Below the pieces are notes generated by a model. That model saw nothing but the letters and a program-made list of their open reading frames with translations, was not told the DNA's origin and did not search any database. A stretch of DNA of 40,724 nt, taken from positions 1 through 40,724 of IMG/VR virus record IMGVR_UViG_3300041402_000181; one strand, 5' to 3'. The stretch is from a virus. The position numbers were made by a program, and so were the translations under genes. Below, piece after piece: positions 857 to 29,120 of this stretch (position 1 is its first letter; every line of letters begins with the position of its first letter).

Positions 857-2219
857 GATGAAATTATTTCCATCATTGTGGGCCATCCTGGGAACGGAGT
901 TGACAAAGCTCGAAGCATTATACAGCGGATTCACAAGTGAGATGATCGCAGGACTGGAGAGGGACTCGAAGCTCGCAATTGAGGGACTGGATCTTTCTCC
1001 GACTGGACTCTCTCCCGATGTGTCTATCATCAACAATGTCGGTGTCTTGAGCATCTCTGGGATCATCACTCAGAAAGCTGACATCTTCACAATGATATTC
1101 GGAGGAGCAACACTTGACACTCTGACAGCGGATTTCAAATCACTCGTTGAAAATGAGGACATTGACACGATCGTCCTGGACGTTGACTCTCCAGGAGGGA
1201 CTGTTTTCGGAGTTCAAGAATTTGCAAACTTGATCTTTGACTCCAGGAGCAAGAAGAAAATAATCACGATTTCATCTTCCGTCATGGCATCAGCCGCCAT
1301 GTGGATCGGAGCGGCCGCTGACGTTGTTCTGATCTCAGGAGGAACTGTTTCAACTGGAAGCATCGGAGTTCTCACAACTCATGTGGATGTCTCTCAGCTT
1401 GAAGCGGATCTCGGAATCAAGACAACGGAGATCACAGCAGGGAGGGAGAAGCGGATCGCTTCAACTTTCTCTCCACTGACTGACGCTGGACGCTCCTCAT
1501 TGCAGAGCCAGGTTGACAAGATCATGGAAGCGTTTGTCGGTGACATTGCAAAGTTCAGAGGAGTGAGTGATCAGGAGGTCAAGAGCAACATGGCTGACGG
1601 GAAGATTTTCATCGGAGACAATGCGGTGAAAGCTGGTCTTGTCGATGACATAATCACGTTTGATTTATTAATTGAAACCATTAACAACGGAGGACTGAAC
1701 ATGGGATTATTCTCAAAGAAGGAAGCGAACATCGGAAACTTGAAAGCGGATCATGAGGATCTGTACAATGAAGCAGTTGCAGTCGGTGTTGCAGAAAGCA
1801 AGGAGACTCTTGCAAATGAAGTTTCAAGCATACAAGCAACGGCCGTGAAAGTCGGAGAGGCTCAAGGAGCAGAAGCAGAGAGAGCAAGGATCCAGGGGAT
1901 CAATGATTGCACTATCATCGGCCAGGAAGCTCTCGGAAAAACTTTGATCGCTGACGGAACAACCACTCCAGGTGAAGCCGCAATCCAGATGATCAATGCA
2001 AACAAGAAAGCGAACGTTGACGGATTGAAAGTGATCGACAAAACTTCTGCAAATGCTGTTGTTGACGAAGTAGAAGAAACGATCGTTGACAAAACAGCGA
2101 TGACAGCAAAGCAGAAATGGGATGCGGATCCGAAACTTGCAAGCGAGTTCTCCAGTTTCGAAGCTTTTGAAGCAGTAGAAAAAAACGCTGAAAATTTCAG
2201 AATCAAGAAATCAGGATAA
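840..2219 (+). CDS. S49-family capsid maturation protease with C-terminal scaffold region (lambda gpC-like)
   Basis: This head maturation protease acts inside the procapsid. The core, roughly residues 60-285, has the ClpP/SppA fold signature: VLDVDSPGG (113-121), a Ser-centred helix VMASAAMWIG with likely nucleophile Ser151, TGSIGV (172-177), and AGREKR with a candidate general base Lys204. This matches the Ser-Lys dyad known for lambda gpC. Residues 288-459 are charged and helical like a scaffold, and an internal start makes this part separately (see 1701-2219). The ATG at 840 has AAGGAG seven bases upstream and overlaps the portal gene. Length (459 aa) is close to lambda gpC (439 aa). Confidence 0.92.
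   Translation: MTQKNKMKLFPSLWAILGTELTKLEALYSGFTSEMIAGLERDSKLAIEGLDLSPTGLSPDVSIINNVGVLSISGIITQKADIFTMIFGGATLDTLTADFKSLVENEDIDTIVLDVDSPGGTVFGVQEFANLIFDSRSKKKIITISSSVMASAAMWIGAAADVVLISGGTVSTGSIGVLTTHVDVSQLEADLGIKTTEITAGREKRIASTFSPLTDAGRSSLQSQVDKIMEAFVGDIAKFRGVSDQEVKSNMADGKIFIGDNAVKAGLVDDIITFDLLIETINNGGLNMGLFSKKEANIGNLKADHEDLYNEAVAVGVAESKETLANEVSSIQATAVKVGEAQGAEAERARIQGINDCTIIGQEALGKTLIADGTTTPGEAAIQMINANKKANVDGLKVIDKTSANAVVDEVEETIVDKTAMTAKQKWDADPKLASEFSSFEAFEAVEKNAENFRIKKSG
1701..2219 (+). CDS. Internal in-frame scaffold protein (Nu3-like), nested in the protease gene
   Basis: An ATG at 1701 lies in the protease frame and is preceded by GGAGG at 1689-1693, a seven-base spacing, which is as good as any start in this genome. 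It would give a 172-residue protein with a charged, Ala/Glu/Lys-rich helical composition (VAVGVAESKETLANEV, EAQGAEAERARI), as expected of a phage scaffold. Lambda makes Nu3 scaffold in exactly this way, from an internal start in gene C. The position falls just after the protease core ends. The ribosome binding site and frame are seen; that the product is made is inferred from the lambda precedent. Confidence 0.7.
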   Translation: MGLFSKKEANIGNLKADHEDLYNEAVAVGVAESKETLANEVSSIQATAVKVGEAQGAEAERARIQGINDCTIIGQEALGKTLIADGTTTPGEAAIQMINANKKANVDGLKVIDKTSANAVVDEVEETIVDKTAMTAKQKWDADPKLASEFSSFEAFEAVEKNAENFRIKKSG

Positions 2220-2247
2220 GAAACAAAAAATCCGTGAAGTCGTTGGT

Positions 2248-2276
2248 TTGACAATCTTATTGAATTAAAATTTGAT
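2248..2276 (+). promoter_or_regulatory. Candidate sigma-70-type promoter ahead of the capsid genes
   Basis: The 87-base gap after the protease gene holds a perfect TTGACA (2248-2253), a 17-base AT-rich spacer and TTTGAT (2271-2276), a 4/6 match to TATAAT. It would serve the decoration and major capsid genes, which must be made in large amounts. The -10 is mediocre, so this is a tentative call. Confidence 0.35.
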
Positions 2277-2306
2277 GTAAAACTTTTTTAGAATCTGGAG
2301 GAAATT

Positions 2307-3071
2307 ATGACTACACTCGCAGTCAATGTTGCAAGAGCTTTTGTTTTAGGAAATGAAAATGATTTTCCAGCAATAGCGGATATATTTTTTGAGGGTTCCG
2401 CTGTTGGCCTGGTAGATGCAACTGGTCACGCAAGGCCGCTGGAAGCGACTGACAGGTTTGTCGGGTTCGTCCAGGAGAAGCTCGATGCGTCACTGGTGTC
2501 GGCCGCTGATCGAAATGTCAGAGTGAAGAAAAGAGGAGTTGTGAAACTCTCTGTCTCTGGAGCAGTCATCACTGATGTCGGCCAGCCTATTTATGCGACT
2601 GATGATGACACTTTTGTGTTCTCTCCAGTTGCCTCTGTCTTCATCGGGAAAGTTGTTCGCTTTGTTTCCGCTGGAGTTGTTGACGTTGAATTTGACGCTG
2701 GCAACATGGCAGATCCTTACGCTGGCAGAGTGTGGGAGACTTTCTCAACGGCCGCAACTCTGACAAAGGTTGACACTGGAAAAGGTTTCTGGGTTGACAC
2801 TGACGCTCAGACAATGACGCTGTTGACTTTTGCGGCTACAACTGCAATCGACATCATGGTTGTCACTGGTGGAGCGTTCGGAACTGTTGGAACGGCTGTT
2901 GATCCTGCCGCTGGAGACTTGATCTCTGGCCCTGATGATACAGGTGCAGACGGTGGAATCGCAACTAATACGAAAGCAACTGCAAGACGAGGAGACTTCC
3001 TCCACATCGTAACTGGTGGAGACGAAGGTTATCTGATAGCAGAAAAAAGAGGTATCTGGACGATAGCGTAA
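2307..3071 (+). CDS. Head decoration (capsid cement) protein, DUF2190-like
   Basis: This protein is likely to bind the outside of the capsid and stabilise it. The first 120 residues resemble the DUF2190 decoration family: FFEGSAVGLVDATGHARPL (29-47), then ATDRFVGFVQEKL and a beta-rich segment with VRVKKRGVVKLSVSGAV. Residues 130-254 are a second beta-rich region (GKGFWVDTDAQTMTLL, GDFLHIVTGGDEGYLIAEKRG) that I do not recognise. GGAGG sits five bases before the ATG. Its place between protease and major capsid protein is where lambda gpD-type decoration genes lie. The family assignment rests on motif resemblance only. Confidence 0.7.
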   Translation: MTTLAVNVARAFVLGNENDFPAIADIFFEGSAVGLVDATGHARPLEATDRFVGFVQEKLDASLVSAADRNVRVKKRGVVKLSVSGAVITDVGQPIYATDDDTFVFSPVASVFIGKVVRFVSAGVVDVEFDAGNMADPYAGRVWETFSTAATLTKVDTGKGFWVDTDAQTMTLLTFAATTAIDIMVVTGGAFGTVGTAVDPAAGDLISGPDDTGADGGIATNTKATARRGDFLHIVTGGDEGYLIAEKRGIWTIA

Positions 3072-3073
3072 TC

Positions 3074-3253
3074 ATGGCGAATTCTATCAACGAACAAGCG
3101 AGGGAGGACATCACTCTCGCACTGGGTAGCATCAACGTTGAAGTGGGAGAGACTGTTCTCCCGCTGTTGAATTCGTCAGTCTCAGAGATCGTTCTGAAAA
3201 TTAAAAGTGGAGAGGTCGAAGAAATTCGGCCTCTCTATAAACTAAAGAAATAA
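3074..3253 (+). CDS. Small hypothetical protein between decoration and capsid genes
   Basis: A 59-codon reading frame starts two bases after the decoration gene stop, so translation is probably coupled; no clear ribosome binding site is present. The product begins MANSINEQAREDI and ends PLYKLKK, with alternating hydrophobic and polar residues (INVEVGETVLPLLNSSVSEIVLKI) compatible with a small folded domain. It fills what would otherwise be a gap in the head operon and uses the same codons as its neighbours. Function unknown; an accessory head or connector role is inferred from position alone. Confidence 0.6.
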   Translation: MANSINEQAREDITLALGSINVEVGETVLPLLNSSVSEIVLKIKSGEVEEIRPLYKLKK

Positions 3254-3282
3254 TTTTTACATTTTAAACGAAGGAGGAAGAC

Positions 3283-4212
3283 ATGGGCGCACTCGCACTA
3301 TCAAGCAGAGCGATAATCGGAGAATTCTTTTTGCGATTAGAGCAAAATGTCGGAACGGCTTGGATCGATCAGGTCTCAATGTTGTTCCAGTCGAATCAAG
3401 AATCAGAGACTTATAAATGGCTTGGAATGGTTCCTCAGATGCGTGAGTGGATTGGTGGCCGTAATGCCAAAGGATTCAGAGACAATGGAATCACTATCGT
3501 CAACAAGGAATTCGAAGCCACTCTGGAAGTTCTTGTCAAGGAGTTAAGACGAGACAAGACAGGCCAGGTTCTTTTGAGAGTCCGTGAGCTTGCAGACAGA
3601 ACAAACTCTCACTGGGCAAAACTTTTGTCAACACTGATCATCGCAGGAGAGACTGGTCTTTGTTATGACGGAGCGGAATATTTCGCAACTGATCACGAGG
3701 AGGGTGACTCTGGATCCCAGTCAAACGACATCACTTCCGATGTCACAACAACGACTGCTCCAACGGCCGCAGAGATGGAGATCGCTATCCTGGCCGCTGT
3801 CACTCAGATCCTTTCTTTCGTTGACGATGAAGCAGAGCCAATGAATGAAGGTGCGAACTCTTTCGGAATCATGGTTCCAGTTCCGTTCATGGCATCAACA
3901 CTGTCTGCATTGAAAAATGCAACTATCGTTGACGCTTCTGGATCCAGACAGAACACGATCCTGTCTTCTGGTTTCAACTTTGATCTCTGGGTGAATCCGA
4001 GATTAAGCTGGACAACTAAGTTCGCAACATTCAGGACTGACGGAAACGCAAAACCGTTGATCAGACAGGAAGAAACAGCAGTCAAGGTCGATGCGATTGC
4101 AGAAGGTTCTGAACTTGAGTTCAACGACAAGAAACATCACTATGGTGTTTCGGCTGATCGAAATGTGGGTTATGGATTCTGGCAACATGCGAATCTGACA
4201 ACTCTTGTATAA
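3283..4212 (+). CDS. Major capsid protein, Mu gpT-like
   Basis: This is the main shell protein. It has the N-terminal MGALALSSRAIIGEFF and the central segments YKWLGMVPQMREWIGGR, NKEFEATLEV and YDGAEYFATDH, which resemble the Mu-like major head subunit gpT family (family members share a similar F-x-G-x-x-F-F-x-T-D-H element). At 309 residues it has the usual length for that family. A consensus AAGGAGG precedes the ATG. Finding a Mu-type coat protein behind a lambda-type portal and protease is a mosaic but plausible combination. The downstream hairpin at 4223-4277 separates it from the connector genes. Confidence 0.85.
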   Translation: MGALALSSRAIIGEFFLRLEQNVGTAWIDQVSMLFQSNQESETYKWLGMVPQMREWIGGRNAKGFRDNGITIVNKEFEATLEVLVKELRRDKTGQVLLRVRELADRTNSHWAKLLSTLIIAGETGLCYDGAEYFATDHEEGDSGSQSNDITSDVTTTTAPTAAEMEIAILAAVTQILSFVDDEAEPMNEGANSFGIMVPVPFMASTLSALKNATIVDASGSRQNTILSSGFNFDLWVNPRLSWTTKFATFRTDGNAKPLIRQEETAVKVDAIAEGSELEFNDKKHHYGVSADRNVGYGFWQHANLTTLV

Positions 4213-4222
4213 ATTATCTTTG

Positions 4223-4277
4223 CCTGTTCTCTCTGTTGGCTGTCGAGCTTTTGTCCTTTCCCTCGAACGTCAACAGG
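4223..4277 (+). terminator. Hairpin after the major capsid gene (attenuator or processing site)
   Basis: In the 89-base gap after the capsid gene, GTTG (4235-4238) and TCGAG (4243-4247) can pair with CTCGA (4262-4266) and CAAC (4271-4274), leaving two four-base internal strands that face each other. CCTGTT (4223-4228) could alternatively pair with AACAGG (4272-4277). There is no strong U-run after the stem, so a partial terminator or RNA-stability element that lowers downstream expression relative to capsid is more likely than a full terminator. Confidence 0.45.
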
Positions 4278-4301
4278 GAGGACTCCCGTTGAGGAAAAAA
4301 A

Positions 4302-4604
4302 ATGACATTCAAAGATGACATGATCACTGACCTAGATGAAACGTTTCTCGATAATGAGGAGTTCGCAGTTGACATCACCTACAATGCAGGAACTATCCAG
4401 GGGATCTTTGATGCAGAGTTCTCCAGCGCAGTTGAGGGAGAGATGGGCATTGAGTCAACCGTCCCTCAAGTGCAAGTCAAGACAACCGATGTTCCAGGGA
4501 TCGCACACAATGCCACAATGACGATCAACACTATTGTCTATAATGTCATAGGGATCCAGCCAGATGGAACTGGAATGACTTTGCTTTTATTGTCGGAAGA
4601 CTAA
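4302..4604 (+). CDS. Head-tail joining protein, lambda gpFII / Gifsy-2-like
   Basis: A 100-residue connector that would sit under the portal and accept the tail. The pattern is that of the FII/Gifsy-2 family: N-terminal MTFKDDMITDLDETFLDNEEFAVDI, a beta strand with a short turn (YNAGTIQGIFD), and the C-terminal signature of a small beta barrel ending in a D-G-T-G-M-T-L-L-L turn-strand. Length matches the family (about 100-120 aa). GAGG lies seven bases before the ATG. In lambda the equivalent gene follows the capsid gene, as here. Confidence 0.7.
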   Translation: MTFKDDMITDLDETFLDNEEFAVDITYNAGTIQGIFDAEFSSAVEGEMGIESTVPQVQVKTTDVPGIAHNATMTINTIVYNVIGIQPDGTGMTLLLLSED

Positions 4605-4617
4605 GAAAGGGAAATCA

Positions 4618-5415
4618 ATGAAGGGAGTCGGGCCAGGACATAGAGCGATCCAGAAATCAAGCGACTTTCTCATTGAAGTTGCAAAGGGGAAAGTCCCTGG
4701 TCACTCAATCGTTCACAAGTTCGGACACGCAGAAGTCGGAACAACTATGACTCCGATATGTCATGGAGGGATTTATCCAACTCCAACAGCAGAAGTCTCT
4801 CTCGAAGTTCTCTCGGACGATCCTCTTGACACATTTCTCGGAACTGGTGCGAGAACAATTTTCTTTGAGGGTTTAGCGTTAGACGGAAGCATCGTGACTC
4901 AATCAGTTGAAATGAACGGGACAACAGCGGTTCCTCTCCCGACTGATCTGTTTCGTCTTTATCGATGGTTTGTTGAAACTTCTGGAACATACGCAACAAC
5001 AGCAGTCGGAAGTCATGCTGGAGCGATAACAGTCAGAGTCGCAGGAGGAGGAGCCACATGGAGCGCACTGGATCTGACTCCATTCCCTCACGGTCAATCT
5101 GAGATCGGCTGGTACACTGTCCCGCTCGGACATCGAGCCTATGTGTTCTTACAAGAGATAAATGTTGACACAACAAAAACGGCTGACCTGGTATTTGTGA
5201 GACGAGAGGGAGCAAACATTGTTGTCGCTCCTTTTTCTCCCATGAGAGTCGTTGCTCAATATGTTGGAATTGCTGGAAGTAATCCCTCAGACAGTAACGC
5301 TCCGCAAAACAGTTTTGAAGCGTTCTCAGATATTGGATATATGGGAAAGGTCGCATCGAGTACAGCGTCAGTCTCGGTCGCATACGAGATCTTACTGGTT
5401 GAGGATGGATTTTAA
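4618..5415 (+). CDS. Unassigned structural protein in the head-tail connector region
   Basis: I do not recognise a named family. The 265-residue product is rich in Gly, Thr, Val and Ala and looks beta-structured. It includes GTGARTIFFEGLALDGS and VEMNGTTAVPL, a style seen in uncharacterised virion proteins of several environmental phages, and a C-terminal segment (VASSTASVSVAYEILLVED) that reads like a beta-sandwich edge. No signal peptide or membrane segment is visible. AAAGGG precedes the ATG, and only 13 bases separate it from the joining protein gene. A virion or assembly role is inferred from location and composition. Confidence 0.6.
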   Translation: MKGVGPGHRAIQKSSDFLIEVAKGKVPGHSIVHKFGHAEVGTTMTPICHGGIYPTPTAEVSLEVLSDDPLDTFLGTGARTIFFEGLALDGSIVTQSVEMNGTTAVPLPTDLFRLYRWFVETSGTYATTAVGSHAGAITVRVAGGGATWSALDLTPFPHGQSEIGWYTVPLGHRAYVFLQEINVDTTKTADLVFVRREGANIVVAPFSPMRVVAQYVGIAGSNPSDSNAPQNSFEAFSDIGYMGKVASSTASVSVAYEILLVEDGF

Positions 5416-5490
5416 AAACAACGGGACATGTCCTGACATGCTTCCTTAATTTTGGACGCTTCACAGAGGATCTGAGGGAGGGGAAAAATT

Positions 5491-5946
5491 ATGATTGATA
5501 AAGAAAACACAATTCTGGTTTCTATTCCGTACACTGGAACCAGGTTCCTCAAGGAGAGGCTTGGTTTGAAGCGTACCACACACACAACAGCAAACTGGGA
5601 GTCACTCCTGGGACTTGTCAAGGGCCGCAAGATCATTGCTCCCTTGAGGGATCCGAAGTCTTGCTGGAGATCGACTGTCAGGAGAATGACGAACACGAAC
5701 ACGAGAGACTTCAAAAACGTTGCTGGATTTTTTAAAGCCTGGTATCAGATGCACTCTTTGACATTGCTTTATGATGTTGATTTTATTCCAGTTGACTTGA
5801 GACAAGACAGCAGGATCCAGGACTGGGAGCCTGTCGGGAATGATGACAGAGGAGAGAATGAAAAAGCTCCAGACGTTCACTTGCGGGAACTTTATGAACT
5901 ACCATTTGTAAAACAATTTTACAGCCTGGGAAAAAATTATGCCTGA
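5491..5946 (+). CDS. Sulfotransferase-like P-loop protein in the structural operon
   Basis: A 151-residue protein with two elements resembling the PAPS-binding motifs of sulfotransferases. The first is VSIPYTGTRFLKERL near residues 10-24, where the 5'-phosphosulfate loop would be. The second is KIIAPLRDPKSCWRSTVRR near residues 47-65, matching the hydrophobic strand plus RDP...S of the 3'-phosphate-binding motif. It is much shorter than typical cellular sulfotransferases (250 aa or more), so it may be a minimal or non-catalytic P-loop protein. A strong GGGAGGGG precedes the ATG and it overlaps the tail terminator gene by eight bases. It occupies the place where lambda carries gene Z. The substrate is unknown. 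Confidence 0.5.
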   Translation: MIDKENTILVSIPYTGTRFLKERLGLKRTTHTTANWESLLGLVKGRKIIAPLRDPKSCWRSTVRRMTNTNTRDFKNVAGFFKAWYQMHSLTLLYDVDFIPVDLRQDSRIQDWEPVGNDDRGENEKAPDVHLRELYELPFVKQFYSLGKNYA

Positions 5947-6385
5947 CTCAAGAAGACAACAGATAATCGATCAAATAAAAACACTCCTGGCAACAATAAC
6001 AGTTGCGAACGGGTTCAAAACAAATACTGGATCAAATGTCTTTGAGTGGAAAGGAATTGATTTCCAGGACACGGAACTCCCAGGAGTTGACGTTCGGGAT
6101 CCGAGTGAGGACGTTGAGAACAGAGGAAGCAATCACGTTTACACTCTCACGGTGGACATTGAAGCGAAAGTCTCAGCGAGTACGTCAACGAACCAGGCCA
6201 GGGAGGTTCTCGCAGACATTCAAACTTTGATGGGTAGCAATCAAAATCTCGGAGGACTCGCACATTTAGTCCGTCCAGTGCAGAATGAATTGCTGGACTT
6301 TGAACATGCGAACAATAAATTCGGATCAGTTTCAATACGTTTAGAAGTCGTTTATGCGACAATAGCTTTTCAACCTTACAGCTAG
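5939..6385 (+). CDS. Tail terminator-like protein (lambda gpU-like)
   Basis: A 148-residue protein that would cap the tail tube and join it to the head. It begins with an amphipathic helix (RRQQIIDQIKTLLATI), then beta segments with charged turns (VYTLTVDIEAKV), a helix (QAREVLADIQTLMGSN) and a final strand (SVSIRLEVVYAT). This alternating alpha/beta order and length is that of gpU-type terminators (about 130-150 aa). It overlaps the upstream gene by eight bases and lacks a strong ribosome binding site, suggesting coupled translation. The major tail gene follows immediately. Confidence 0.65.
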   Translation: MPDSRRQQIIDQIKTLLATITVANGFKTNTGSNVFEWKGIDFQDTELPGVDVRDPSEDVENRGSNHVYTLTVDIEAKVSASTSTNQAREVLADIQTLMGSNQNLGGLAHLVRPVQNELLDFEHANNKFGSVSIRLEVVYATIAFQPYS

Positions 6386-7689: not shown

Positions 7690-10315
7690 TAAAGTAAAAA
7701 TTGAAATCGGAGGAGATACGTCTGGAGCAGAGGCCAGCATCAAGGATCTCGAACAGGTCACGAAAAAGTCTTTCGAGAAAATGGCACAAGAAGCAGAGGA
7801 AGCCGCTGACGATGTTGCAAAGTCTTTCAAGAGAGCAGGGATCCGAACAGAGCAGGAGATCAAGGCCAGTTCGAAGAAAGCCAGGAGGGACTTTGAAAAG
7901 ATCCGAGACTCTGGAGTTGCTTCCGCTAATGATATAAAAAGAGCGCACAATGCAATGACAGCAAAGCTGAAAAAGAACAGCAGGGAACTGTCAACAAGCT
8001 CAAAGAAGATCGGGGACATTTTCAAAAATATCAAAGGGACAATCATTGCGGCATCGATTGCGGCCGCTGGATTTTTCGGAGTGAAGGTGTTCGGAGAAGC
8101 AATCAAGTTCGAGTCTGCTTTGCTGGATCTTCAAAAGGTGATGACAGACTCGGAGGGAGACGCAAAACAATTCACAGCAGTCACGGAGGAACTCGCAAAG
8201 AAATTCGGTGTATCATCAGCGGAGGTTCTCCAGGGAGCCGCAAACTTTAAGCAAGCAGGGTTCTCCCTGGCAGAAGCGTTCCAGTTGCAAGAGCAAGCAT
8301 TGAAGCTGGTAATCGCTGGAGATATAGAAGCCGCAGAAGCCGCTGAACTCCTGGTCTCAACGTTGAAAGGATTCCAGGCTCCAGCGTCAGAAGCCGCAAG
8401 GCTGACAGATGTCCTGAATGAAGTCTCAAACAAATATGCAACGAACCTCCAGCAACTTGCGATCGGCATGGCCGAAGTGTCTCCGATTGCAAAACTGATG
8501 GGATTCACGTTCGAAGAAACAGCGGGACTCCTGACTCCGATCATTGAAGTCTTTAGATCTGGAAGTGAGTCAGCGCAAGGATTCAGAACTGGACTCTTGA
8601 AGTTGATAGATGATGCAGTTCCAGTGACGGAAGCTCTCGCAAATCTCGGAGTTGAACAGAAAGAGGGAGTCAACAAGACAATGCGATCTGGAAAGGCCAT
8701 TGTCGAGGATGTTGCGGCCGCTTTCCTGGGCCTGGACGAAAACTCAAAACTTGTCTTTGCGACTCAGCTTGTCGGGATCCGTCAGGCCGCAAAAATGGTT
8801 CAGGTTTTTGATGGACTTGCAAAGACAACAGAGATCACAAATGTCGCAATGAACGCTCAAGGATCCATCAACAAGGAAGTCGCTGTCAGACTTGCATCAA
8901 CAGCGCAGAAAGGAAAGAAAGCGGCTCAGTCATTTAATATCATGGCGAAAAATGTCGGGAATATTTTGCTCCCGATCTGGAGTCAACTCCTTGACATTGC
9001 AATTGTGACTTTCGATGTCCTTGCAAAAGGATTTTCAGCGACTAAAAATTTCATTGATGGACTCCCAGACTTCACTCGGTTTGTCATTCCGTTCCTGGGC
9101 CTGATCAAAAAATCGAAAGAGCAAGTTGTTCAAACAAATAAACTCGTGAAAGCAAATGACGATTTTGTGGAGTCCGAAAAGGAAGTCAAAAAGAAAGTTG
9201 AAGCAACTGCAAAAGCTTTTGAGGAGAGACGGAAGCTCAGAGCGGAAGACGCTCAAAATGCTGTTGATGCGGCAAACAAGGAACTTGCCGCTGTCACTTT
9301 GAACCTGTCAGCACAACAGGAAAAAAACAAACTGATCAAGGCCAGCATCACGGCAGTCAAAAGCAGTCTCCGAGAGCTTGAAAAGGAATTAACGTCAGCG
9401 GCATCATTCACGCAAAAGATCCTGGACTCCATTGCAAAGAGCCAGAAGACAATTGCTCAACAAGGACTGGATCCGCTGGAGAAACTCCTGGACAACCTGG
9501 AGAGAGCGCAAGCAGATTTCAGGCTGGCAGTCAAAGCAGAGTCCGCTGGAAACACAGAGGAAGCAAGATCACTGACACTCTCAGCAGTTGAAGCGGCAAA
9601 CGCAATCCTGGAAGTCCAGAAAGGAGCAACGGCTGGATCCGAAGTCACAACGAGCGAGTTGACAAGAGCAACAGCGCAAGCTGACAGACTGGTTGCGTCT
9701 GCATTGAAGTTCTCACAGGCGATGGAGGTGTCGGCCGCAGAAGCAATCCCGTCCGTCCAGGAGGAACTCAAAGGACTCGAAGCGGATCTGAAATCTGGAG
9801 AAGCTCAACTGGTGGTCTTGAAGCTCTCCATCAAGCAAGCAACAACTGACGCTGAAAAACTGAAAGCGATCCTGGAGACGAACACAACAGCGACACACAC
9901 TCAAGTGATCAACACGATCAACACTGGTGGAGCATCGGCTCCTCCGATCCCAGGCTTTTCGACTGGTGTCAAGTTGCCAGGTTACGGAGGAGGAGACAAG
10001 ATCCTTGCTCGATTGGAAGCAGGAGAAAGAGTGATCAAGAAAGAAGCAGTCAGGAACCTGGAAGGACTTGGAGGTCGAGCGATGGCCGCACTCCACAAAG
10101 GAGACATCCAGGGACTTGTTGACAGTCTTCCTCTCCCTGGCTTTAATCAGGGAGGAAAGGTTGAGGCCCAGTCTCCGAGTGGGACAACAAATGTCAACAT
10201 GAACCTGGGAGACAAGTCGTTCCCGATGGTTGCGAAAGTAAGCGTTGCCGATGAATTTGCGGCTGAAATTAAATCCATTAACATTGTAAGGAGTCGGAAA
10301 TCTAATCCGTATTAA
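7682..10315 (+). CDS. Tail tape measure protein
   Basis: This is the longest tail-region helical protein (877 aa). It sets tail length; at the usual 1.5 angstrom per residue it predicts a tail near 130 nm. It is Ala/Glu/Lys-rich and coiled-coil over residues 10-130 and 500-740. A hydrophobic segment lies around 120-140 (IIAASIAAAGFFGVKVF) and a second around 460-475. The TP901-type conserved core is visible: EVLQGAANFKQAGFSL, LATNLQQL-like helices and SGSESAQGFRTGL. The Gly-rich C-terminus (GYGGGDKILARLEAGERVI) is also typical of tape measure proteins. Confidence 0.93.
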   Translation: MADKVKIEIGGDTSGAEASIKDLEQVTKKSFEKMAQEAEEAADDVAKSFKRAGIRTEQEIKASSKKARRDFEKIRDSGVASANDIKRAHNAMTAKLKKNSRELSTSSKKIGDIFKNIKGTIIAASIAAAGFFGVKVFGEAIKFESALLDLQKVMTDSEGDAKQFTAVTEELAKKFGVSSAEVLQGAANFKQAGFSLAEAFQLQEQALKLVIAGDIEAAEAAELLVSTLKGFQAPASEAARLTDVLNEVSNKYATNLQQLAIGMAEVSPIAKLMGFTFEETAGLLTPIIEVFRSGSESAQGFRTGLLKLIDDAVPVTEALANLGVEQKEGVNKTMRSGKAIVEDVAAAFLGLDENSKLVFATQLVGIRQAAKMVQVFDGLAKTTEITNVAMNAQGSINKEVAVRLASTAQKGKKAAQSFNIMAKNVGNILLPIWSQLLDIAIVTFDVLAKGFSATKNFIDGLPDFTRFVIPFLGLIKKSKEQVVQTNKLVKANDDFVESEKEVKKKVEATAKAFEERRKLRAEDAQNAVDAANKELAAVTLNLSAQQEKNKLIKASITAVKSSLRELEKELTSAASFTQKILDSIAKSQKTIAQQGLDPLEKLLDNLERAQADFRLAVKAESAGNTEEARSLTLSAVEAANAILEVQKGATAGSEVTTSELTRATAQADRLVASALKFSQAMEVSAAEAIPSVQEELKGLEADLKSGEAQLVVLKLSIKQATTDAEKLKAILETNTTATHTQVINTINTGGASAPPIPGFSTGVKLPGYGGGDKILARLEAGERVIKKEAVRNLEGLGGRAMAALHKGDIQGLVDSLPLPGFNQGGKVEAQSPSGTTNVNMNLGDKSFPMVAKVSVADEFAAEIKSINIVRSRKSNPY

Positions 10316-22286: not shown

Positions 22287-23204
22287 ATGGAAAATGAAAT
22301 TGTGAAGTATATAACAACGGGAGGAGACATCGAATTGTCTCCAGAGATCATCAAGGCTCAACTCGTTCCTCCTGACTCACAGATCACGGATCAGGAACTC
22401 GGATTCTTTTTGCAAATGTGTAAATATCAAAAACTGAATCCGTTCTTGAAAGAAATTTACATTGTAAAATATGGAGCTTATCCAGCGGCCTTTGTTGTCG
22501 GGAAAGATACTTTCTTGAGGAGAGCGAAAAGAGATGAAACATATCTCGGACACAAGGTTGCGATCTCTGATGACGGAAAGACTGCCTGGGCCGAAGTGGA
22601 GGTCAAAGGACTGAAATATCCGATCAGGGTTGACGTTGAGTTCGATGAATATGTCGGAACAAAAGGTGACGGAACTGTCAATGCGATGTGGACGAAAAAG
22701 CCGAAAACGATGTTGAAGAAAGTGGCCCTGGTTCAAGCACTGAGAGAAGCTTTCCCAGATGCACTCGGTCAGATGTATGATGAAGTTGAGATCGACAAAG
22801 AGCAGGAACTTGTTGACGTTGTTGCAAACGAGGTCAAGCCAGCGGAATCGAAGTCGGCCCAGGAAGCAGAGCAGAAAAAGCCAGAGAAAAAGGCTCCAGA
22901 CTCCTCTCCAAAGGCCGCAAAGAAGACTGAGGGAGCAAAGACATCAAAGACAACTGGAGAAGTCCAGGAGATCATGTCAAAGATCAAGAATGTTACTCAG
23001 ACAACTGGTGGAGATCCTCAGAAACCCTGGACTCGATTCAACATCGAGACTGTCGGTGGTACTTTCTACACGACTTTTGACAAGAACTTTGCAAAGGACG
23101 CTGAAAGCATCAAAGGAAAGGACGCAGAAGCATTGCTCCAGTATGTTGTCGTTGATGGGAAATATTTCAACCTGGTAGACAAGACAGGTCTTTCGCTCAT
23201 TTAA
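22287..23204 (+). CDS. Single-strand annealing recombinase, Bet/RecT family
   Basis: A 305-residue protein; the first 190 residues match the Bet/RecT family of phage recombinases that anneal complementary single strands during Red-type recombination. Signs are QLVPPDSQITDQELGFFLQM, YQKLNPFLKEIYIVKYG, FVVGKDTFLRRAK, and the 'TMLKKVALVQALREAFPDAL' helix. The linker 205-230 is Lys/Ser-rich and disordered (KKPEKKAPDSSPKAA); residues 231-305 form a small beta-rich domain (RFNIETVGGTFYTTFDKNF) that may be an OB-like fold. The partner exonuclease lies at 23630. GAGG stands before the ATG. Confidence 0.88.
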   Translation: MENEIVKYITTGGDIELSPEIIKAQLVPPDSQITDQELGFFLQMCKYQKLNPFLKEIYIVKYGAYPAAFVVGKDTFLRRAKRDETYLGHKVAISDDGKTAWAEVEVKGLKYPIRVDVEFDEYVGTKGDGTVNAMWTKKPKTMLKKVALVQALREAFPDALGQMYDEVEIDKEQELVDVVANEVKPAESKSAQEAEQKKPEKKAPDSSPKAAKKTEGAKTSKTTGEVQEIMSKIKNVTQTTGGDPQKPWTRFNIETVGGTFYTTFDKNFAKDAESIKGKDAEALLQYVVVDGKYFNLVDKTGLSLI

Positions 23205-23209
23205 TTAAG

Positions 23210-23314
23210 GGGATAGCGGGTTCAGTCTCATGGAAGACTTGACTCAGGTTTGAGATGAAAAAGGCTCTATGAGATAAGCTTTTCAGCTTTGCTTCCGTGA
23301 GACTACCCGATCCC
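23210..23314 (+). ncRNA. Strongly folded non-coding element between Bet and the next gene
   Basis: The 131-base gap holds an inverted repeat that can form 23 base pairs: GGGAT (23210-23214) with ATCCC (23310-23314), CGGGT (23217-23221) with ACCCG (23305-23309), and AGTCTCATGGAAG (23224-23236) with its complement (23292-23304, one G-U). Only two-base bulges (AG and TC) interrupt the left arm. The 55 inner bases can form two small hairpins: CTCA-GGTT-TGAG (23243-23254) and one with GAAAA/TTTTC plus GCT/AGC (23257-23284). The layout is like a junction with a long closing stem. It is not a tRNA and I do not recognise a riboswitch or ribozyme; no U-run follows. Confidence 0.6.
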
Positions 23315-23335
23315 ATAACTTTTGCAGGAGAAAAA

Positions 23336-23629
23336 ATGCTGGATCTACTAATTGCGATCGGAGCTTTCACTGTCGGATCCGTTGTGTTCATTTACACCTG
23401 GACAAGAGGGATCATCATGTTGAAGACGAACTCCTGGACGTTGCAGACATTCCTTGCGCTGATGTGTCCGACACACACTCTCTCATTCTGGTCGGTTGAC
23501 AAAGAGGAGAACTGGAGACTGTTTTCCAAAGTCACGAGATACTATCTTTCACATTATTATATCAACGGATCAAGAGCAAACAGGTTCCGCTGGTGGACTG
23601 ACTTTTTGAATGATTGTGCGGTGAAATAA
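23336..23629 (+). CDS. Small protein with an N-terminal membrane segment
   Basis: A 97-residue protein. Residues 2-21 are hydrophobic (LDLLIAIGAFTVGSVVFIYT), followed by WTRGIIMLKTNSWTLQ and a Trp/Tyr/Arg-rich cytoplasmic-type C-terminus (NWRLFSKVTRYYLSHYYING). AGGAG precedes the ATG at 23336. The frame is open to 23297, but that part lies in the folded element, so the shorter start is preferred. It is sandwiched between the recombinase and exonuclease genes. No family recognised. Confidence 0.6.
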   Translation: MLDLLIAIGAFTVGSVVFIYTWTRGIIMLKTNSWTLQTFLALMCPTHTLSFWSVDKEENWRLFSKVTRYYLSHYYINGSRANRFRWWTDFLNDCAVK

Positions 23630-24238
23630 TTGCTGACATTTGAGGAAAAAAATCATATTTACAGATGGGATGGAGAAGTTGTTCCCAGTGTGACAAAGGT
23701 CATCAGCGATCTGAGTGACTTCTCTGGGATCCCGCCACAAGTGCTGGCGAACAAATCGGCCCTGGGAACTGAATTTCACAGGATCATCAAGCTTCATTTC
23801 CTGGACGATCTACTCTATGACACAATTGACTCCAGGCTGGTTCCAGCTTTCGACACGTTCCTGGAGTGGTCTGCTCCCAGGCTGGATGAATTCAGGAAAG
23901 CAAAGTCGGAGGAGATGCTGTTCAGCGAGAAAATGTGGCTGACTGGGACTTGTGATCTGGCAACTCCTGGAGAACTGTTTGACTGGAAGCTCCGAAACTA
24001 TATGCCAGTTGTGGACGTTCTCCAGCTTGACGGATATGACACTTTGCTCCCAGGAGGAAAGAGGAAACGCTGGACGATGTGTTTCAATATGAAGTCAGGG
24101 AAACTCAACATCAGGAGATCCGAACACTCCCAGAGTCATTCAATGTTTATGTATATGCTTGACTTTTATCACAGTGAAAACAAAGACATCGAAAACCATT
24201 TGCAGACGCTCGCAAACTGGAGAGGAGAATGGAATTGA
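23630..24238 (+). CDS. RecB-like PD-(D/E)XK exonuclease, partner of Bet
   Basis: A 202-residue nuclease likely to resect double-strand ends for the annealing protein. The PD-(D/E)XK pattern is complete: GTEFHR (His50), SEEMLF (Glu95), LTGTCDL (Asp109), ELFDWKL (Asp118 and Lys120), then VLQLDGY (Gln132). This is the RecB/Cas4-like nuclease arrangement. It starts with TTG at 23630, immediately after the previous stop, with no ATG or strong ribosome binding site near, so translation is probably coupled; the N-terminus LTFEEKNHIYRWDGEVVPSV fits other members. The recombination context supports the call. Confidence 0.8.
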   Translation: MLTFEEKNHIYRWDGEVVPSVTKVISDLSDFSGIPPQVLANKSALGTEFHRIIKLHFLDDLLYDTIDSRLVPAFDTFLEWSAPRLDEFRKAKSEEMLFSEKMWLTGTCDLATPGELFDWKLRNYMPVVDVLQLDGYDTLLPGGKRKRWTMCFNMKSGKLNIRRSEHSQSHSMFMYMLDFYHSENKDIENHLQTLANWRGEWN

Positions 24239-28352: not shown

Positions 28353-29120
28353 ATGAAAGACTTTAACAACAAAGACACGAAATTTTCTCCTGTCAATTCT
28401 TACTGGCTGGCCTGGAGTTCCCGTCTCGCTTATGCAGACAACGAGGAAATTGAAACAGAACTGATGAAGGAAGCAATGACGCTCTATGGATTTTTTGATG
28501 AAGATAACACTCAAGCGTTCATCGCTGTTGACGATGACAAGATGATCATTTCGGTGAGAGGGACGGACGGACTCGCTGACGCAATGACAGACATCAATGT
28601 TGATCTTGTTGATGGAGTGGGAGGTCGAGTTCATGAGGGTTTCAATACGTCAGCGGCAAGGCTCTGGAAGTTTGTCATGAGTGCAGTCAAGGCAAGAGGA
28701 AACAGATCTCTCTGGATCACGGGACATTCCCTGGGAGCAGGGATTGCAACGATCCTGACTGCAAGACTCGTTCAGCAGAAAGACGAACCAGTCAACGGGC
28801 TTTACACATACGGACAACCTCGAACGGGAGACAAGAAGTTTGCCAGGAACTTCAATGCTTCATTCGGGACGCAGACCTTTCGACATGTCAACAACAACGA
28901 TATTGTCACCAGGACTCCGTTCCGCTCGATGGGCTTTGCTCATGTCGGTGAGTTGATATATTTTGATGAACATGGTCAGTGGAGAGTTGATCTCAAATGG
29001 TGGGAGAAATTGCTTGATCGGATCTCTGGCCGCTGGAATGATCTGTTCGAATTAGGGACTGACGGAATCAAGGATCACGGAGTTGACGAATATGTTGACA
29101 GGTCAGGGAGGATGATTTGA
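28353..29120 (+). CDS. Class 3 lipase (alpha/beta hydrolase), complete catalytic triad
   Basis: A 255-residue alpha/beta hydrolase of the lipase class 3 type, which would cleave ester bonds of acylglycerols or phospholipids. The expected parts are all seen: oxyanion strand IISVRGTD (65-72), VHEGF (93-97), nucleophile elbow WITGHSLGAG with Ser126, YTYGQPRTGD (151-160, the family's 'tfGqPRvGd'), NNDIV with Asp183, and DHGVDEY with His242. There is no signal peptide or lipobox, so it would act in the cytoplasm or at the inner membrane face, or be released by lysis. A strong GGAGGA start and the upstream membrane peptide suggest coupling. Confidence 0.85.
   Translation: MKDFNNKDTKFSPVNSYWLAWSSRLAYADNEEIETELMKEAMTLYGFFDEDNTQAFIAVDDDKMIISVRGTDGLADAMTDINVDLVDGVGGRVHEGFNTSAARLWKFVMSAVKARGNRSLWITGHSLGAGIATILTARLVQQKDEPVNGLYTYGQPRTGDKKFARNFNASFGTQTFRHVNNNDIVTRTPFRSMGFAHVGELIYFDEHGQWRVDLKWWEKLLDRISGRWNDLFELGTDGIKDHGVDEYVDRSGRMI

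Follow-up and report, generated by a model that had tools for sequence, protein, structure and literature searches.

A newly described structured RNA element behind the bet gene in the recombination operon of two related phages

What is a long, bulged stem-loop doing directly behind the bet gene of a phage recombination operon: is it a chance inverted repeat or a conserved element, and if the latter, does it work as RNA or as DNA? The locus lies in IMG/VR virus record IMGVR_UViG_3300041402_000181, which we analysed over its whole 40,724 nt (hereafter the window). The initial annotation had described an unrecognised structured RNA downstream of bet at 23210-23314, with a 23-pair closing stem, two small bulges and 55 enclosed bases. 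Coordinates and anatomy proved exact: the stem consists of 5+5+13 pairs with two 2-nt bulges (AG and UC) in its left arm and carries a 55-nt apical part, and the compatible G-U mentioned between the arms is a single U-G pair in the distal stem (Table 1). The operon gap in which the fold had been placed measures 131 nt, from the bet stop codon (23204) to the next good start codon (ATG at 23336), and the element occupies most of it. The bet gene, the 97-aa ORF that follows and the exonuclease gene are all encoded on the + strand.

Table 1 Features of the element and its surroundings in the window (L002 and L004 are the two related contigs named in the text)
Feature	Position	Strand	Remarks
bet/recT single-strand annealing protein gene	22287-23204	+	Pfam RecT 1.1e-29; PHROG 252, Bet-like
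Structured RNA element, 105 nt	23210-23314	+	Folding z = -4.2; homologue with covariation at L002 5939-6040
Basal 5' arm, GGGAU-AG-CGGGU	23210-23221	+	GGGA/AGCGGGU and AG bulge same in homologue (alignment)
Basal pairs GGGAU/AUCCC	23210-23214 with 23310-23314	+	
AG bulge, left arm	23215-23216	+	Identical in L002 homologue
Basal pairs CGGGU/ACCCG	23217-23221 with 23305-23309	+	
UC bulge, left arm	23222-23223	+	UA in homologue
Distal stem, 5' arm, 13 nt, AGUCUCAUGGAAG	23224-23236	+	Pairs with CUUCCGUGAGACU at 23292-23304
Apical part, 55 nt	23237-23291	+	Consensus inner hairpin (columns 29-69) and 3' side loop CUUUUCAGCUUUG
Distal stem, 3' arm, 13 nt, CUUCCGUGAGACU	23292-23304	+	One U-G pair in distal stem
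Basal 3' arm, ACCCG-AUCCC	23305-23314	+	CCCGAUCCC identical in homologue
Small downstream ORF, 97 aa, good ribosome-binding site	23336-23629	+	Start outside the fold; no homology to the ORF at the same place in L002
Exonuclease gene, right border of slot	23630-24238	+	PHROG 298 exonuclease 9.9e-10; 76% identical in L002, 70% in L004

Folded alone, the 105-mer had a z-score of -4.2, with none of 200 dinucleotide shuffles folding as well; for the whole gap, 6 of 2000 shuffles did. Since the element was picked out of 40.7 kb, window-wide shuffles also bear on chance, and a stem of at least 23 pairs with bulges was present in 14 of 40 shuffled windows, which likewise attained folding energies similar to that of the element. 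The stem by itself is moderately unusual, and a claim made from one phage's sequence alone would be weak.

A search with Bet identified one relative carrying the element, contig IMGVR_UViG_3300043173_000134 (L002), which is syntenic with the window over most of its length and whose Bet shares 63% identity in the best segment and 64% along the alignment, its exonuclease being 76% identical. The L002 copy (GGGAAGCGGGUACGUUCUGUGAAAG...CUUUCACGGAACGCCCGAUCCC, 5939-6040) adopts this fold in the corresponding position, 2 nt after the bet stop codon, with 21 closing pairs against 23 in the window and small internal loops in both. The distal arms differ at 12 of their 26 bases, and among the 13 distal pairs five have both partners substituted, two have one (each involving a G-U) and six are unchanged, while none is broken; on the 12 pairs that it aligned, the tool counted four both-sided and two one-sided changes. 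When the right arm was randomly mutated with an equal number of changes, all 13 pairs survived in 6 of 100,000 simulations (simulated null 6e-5), and sliding the pairing register by 1-3 bases lowered the paired fraction from 100% to 36-53%. What characterises a conserved structured RNA, compensatory change across homologues, is found here in two sequences, and the covariation check that the initial annotation had proposed, in which disrupted arms would have counted against the element, left the arms intact in the relative. Because the stem is conserved in this homologue, the comparison argues that the 105-base fold is a real structural element, not previously described, and not a product of chance. 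A functionless passive relic, or an inverted repeat that arose by chance, would agree with the frequency of equally long stems in shuffled windows, but not with the compensatory changes and the invariant base of the stem, and is close to refuted.

That base follows another rule. None of the 19 sites in the basal GGGA, AG, CGGG / CCCG, A, UCCC changed between both phages, an invariance with P ~8e-6 at the distal change rate (simple independence model), and the alignment places the one-sided, asymmetric bulges on the same arm in both. Basal invariance combined with distal compensatory change therefore points to two separate constraints, one on pairing in the distal stem and one on sequence at the base. 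The same contrast, 19 unchanged basal sites against 12 of 26 changed distal-arm sites, and the bulges kept on one arm in both phages would suit a protein-binding RNA site, in which the invariant GGGA-AG-CGGG/CCCG-A-UCCC is read by a phage or host protein and the distal stem is merely helical. Bet autoregulation would be one example; another would be modification of RNA polymerase by the RNA, in the manner of the put RNAs of phage HK022. However, no known binding motif was recognised and no Rfam family matched, the element overlaps no start site, and a position in mid-operon, behind bet, would be unusual for an antiterminator, so that we consider such a site possible, though rather unlikely.

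Within the apical part, 25 of 55 bases are identical between the window and L002. The two hairpins initially drawn in the loop can form in each sequence alone, but the RNAalifold consensus of the two prefers one longer, imperfect inner hairpin, in which 4 of 10 inner pairs show a two-sided change, together with a 13-nt pyrimidine-rich side loop on the 3' side. With n = 2, the single longer hairpin is weakly suggested by this alignment-based fold.

The strand on which the fold is kept bears on whether it acts as RNA or as DNA. The two wobble pairs that vary read G-U on the + strand and would become A-C mismatches on its complement, and a covariance model built from both sequences scored 109.5 bits on the L002 plus strand versus 23.3 on the minus; these wobbles and strand scores favour a sense-strand RNA, although the wobble pairs number no more than two. 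If the hairpin instead worked as folded single-stranded DNA, in recombination or DNA uptake, it would be attC-like without being attC and would form the left border of a gene slot whose cargo differs between related phages. In each of the three related phages the slot between annealing-protein and exonuclease genes does contain unrelated cargo, which in the third (contig IMGVR_UViG_3300037247_000177, L004) is an integron-like cassette array, and the element's invariant basal boxes, one-sided bulges and variable distal stem recall the way in which attC sites are conserved. Yet the wobble pairs fit + strand RNA and not the minus strand, the element's ends carry no RYYYAAC/GTTRRRY boxes, the three genomes hold no tyrosine recombinase, each genome has at most one copy and the slot's right border lacks one, and L004 itself lacks the element, all of which make a DNA site unlikely.

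An attC site proper was rejected, as the RYYYAAC (R'')/GTTRRRY (R') box pair is missing from the element's ends in both the window and L002. PF00589 (tyrosine recombinase/integron integrase) had no match in the window, L002 or L004 genomes, control genomes being positive; an associated integron integrase is not required for attC clusters lacking one. Like attC sites, including those of phages (PMC9892861), the element is an imperfect intergenic inverted repeat of ~100 nt that has its bulges on one side and adjoins a slot of variable cargo; unlike them, it has no R boxes (GTTRRRY), no integrase and a single copy, and its conservation fits RNA. It is highly improbable, in our estimate, that the element exemplifies a novel type of folded nucleic-acid site, with an invariant bulged base and a free distal stem, which would mark the annealing-protein/exonuclease cargo slot and recruit or swap cargo there, either as DNA or via a dedicated RNA-binding protein. 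No transposon-like ends with target duplication were seen by eye.

Several observations on its position indicate that the element belongs to the 3' end of bet and is not the leader of a particular gene. Its distance from the bet stop codon is nearly constant (5 nt in the window, 2 nt in L002), whereas that to the next ATG varies (21 versus 54 nt); the genes downstream are unrelated, a 97-aa ORF without clear match in the window versus a 65-aa phrog_6006 protein in L002, and in neither phage does the fold include the ribosome-binding site of that gene. Of the three roles offered at the outset, a regulatory leader is accordingly disfavoured, and a leader or riboswitch of the downstream gene was ruled out, no association with a class of downstream gene being kept; processing or mRNA stability is favoured, and a small RNA is possible. 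Nor is the element a general feature of RecT operons: four further phages, whose RecT proteins are distant, have their next gene within ~12 nt of recT or overlapping it, and since these phages have no gap behind recT, the operon has no general need of such a site.

A small RNA, whether made on its own or released from the bet 3' UTR by processing, would act in trans. The compact conserved fold would agree with this, as would a strong promoter-like match in L002 (TTGTCA-17-TATAAT, at 5857-5885 within the 3' end of bet, 54 nt upstream of the element), but no such promoter occurs at the same place in the window, neither phage has a terminator behind the element, and the apical part is just 25/55 identical, which leaves a trans-acting RNA improbable. 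The statement that the element is neither a tRNA nor a plain terminator held up, as ARAGORN called 0 tRNA or tmRNA genes in the window and there is no U-run or terminator-like call at the element in the window or L002. Stop-codon readthrough and -1 frameshifting stimulated by the hairpin were also rejected on reading the two sequences by eye: past the bet stop, each phage's frame ends after a few codons, these short extensions are dissimilar, and a slippery site common to both was not seen.

We tentatively propose, with a probability of about 0.4, that the element is a cis-acting intercistronic hairpin of the bet 3' UTR that serves in processing (RNase III-type) or 3' stabilisation. The observation of the fold is well founded and the mechanism is a proposal, in which a signal for cutting or protecting the mRNA is the most likely. 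On transcription of the recombination operon from the + strand, the 105 nt would form a 21-23-pair stem, some two helical turns long. Host RNase III, a ribonuclease specific for double strands, could cut this stem, and/or the stem could block 3'-to-5' exonucleases; in this way the bet mRNA would be parted from the exonuclease message that follows it, and the ratio of the two would be set. Since no more than 2-5 nt separate the bet stop codon from the element, the base of the stem would be covered by a ribosome that completes bet, and folding may depend on bet translation. We found no RNase III gene in the phages, and the host enzyme is therefore assumed.

Stems of 21-23 pairs with small internal loops suit RNase III as substrates, and an intergenic place directly after a stop codon would serve either RNase III-type processing or protection of a 3' end. 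The covariation, the + strand signal, the attachment to bet despite unrelated genes downstream and the lack of an intrinsic terminator also count in favour of this reading. An RNase III-type site is expected to have a duplex of some 20 pairs or longer within a transcribed region; both predicted folds have a stem of that length (23 pairs in the window, 21 in L002), transcription being a separate criterion. RNase III does not, however, need an invariant basal sequence with an AG bulge, and since it leaves the invariant bulged base unexplained, sequence-specific recognition by something other than RNase III is suggested. Besides this base, the number of sequences (n = 2) and the other RecT phages without a recT gap speak against the processing reading.

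How does a processing or stabilising hairpin compare with known systems? Intercistronic hairpins processed by RNase III occur in the early region of T7 and in lambda, as sib behind int. The element resembles them in its stem of about two turns, its small internal loops and its place in a gap of a polycistronic phage message, and resembles sib further in adjoining recombination genes; it differs in its sequence-invariant base with a bulge motif, and its cutting is putative. REP-like palindromes, intercistronic stable stems behind stop codons that stabilise mRNA at the 3' end, share its position and stability, but the element is 105 nt long, single-copy and unrepeated in the genome. Like the orphan structured RNA motifs obtained by comparative genomics (e.g. 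PMC2864571, PMC8040213), it is a conserved intergenic fold with covariation support; unlike them, it has two members found, far below the usual family, and is absent from Rfam 15.

At gathering score, Rfam 15 returned no family for the window, L002 or L004, as befits an RNA annotated as unrecognised, and a permissive search with both elements gave chance-level matches only. IMG/VR contained 0 matches to the exact arm-to-arm pattern, while two core-box patterns hit 10 and 34 stretches, among which only the L002 contig carries the element; the other core-pattern stretches, checked by folding and, for the 29 new loci, with the covariance model, were all chance. Relatives sought in IMG/VR by Bet, exonuclease and a third neighbour gene comprised only two related contigs with this region. 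The covariance model, run over three host genomes and 25 virus records (the window, both relatives and 22 related records found via the major capsid protein, many of them fragments without this region), recovered only the window and L002 copies. Weak matches of the model in two bacterial genomes were discarded, the pairs not being kept, and blastn of the element against phages and plasmids gave short chance matches only. The element is single-copy per genome, is absent from the right border of the slot and does not precede the exonuclease gene of L004. In an unrelated phage contig (L080, 3051-3155), a very stable stem (MFE -66, 26 closing pairs) covers a small, GC-rich intergenic frame; although it fits the core pattern, the covariance model gives it no score, and it was rejected as a member.

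The element is a new conserved RNA element with two members so far, of a familiar kind, the intercistronic structured elements of phage messages. It adds a newly described conserved fold tied to a phage recombination operon, and offers a small but clean two-member case of a structural element missed by family libraries. Should it govern how much annealing protein is made relative to exonuclease, it would exert post-transcriptional control of phage recombination, and its invariant bulged base points to a specific partner.

The slot from annealing-protein to exonuclease gene (window 23205-23629, L002 5937-6291, L004 2213-6000) has unrelated content in each of the three syntenic phages and is a hot spot for gene gain. 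In L004 it is taken up by ~3.8 kb (2213-6001) in which integron attC-like sites (ATCTAAC...GTTAGAT; among them those at 2653-2780, 2994-3120, 3275-3355 and 4771-4906) lie between tiny ORFs, the contig having no tyrosine recombinase. Cassette clusters without integrase have been reported in virulent phages (PMC9892861).

The annealing-protein gene of L004 (1242-2213) has been replaced and gives no Pfam RecT or PHROG match; its C-terminal ~90 aa resemble those of the window's Bet by eye, and an exchangeable C-terminal domain common to the two proteins appears likely from this resemblance. Near the start of its replication/recombination region, L004 also carries an array of 12-nt tandem repeats (ACGGTTACGGTT, 442-715). 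Among the early genes of the window lies a class 3 lipase gene (28353-29120; Lipase_3 6.7e-26), unusual cargo for a phage, and L004 has a similar-looking ORF at 7748-8530.
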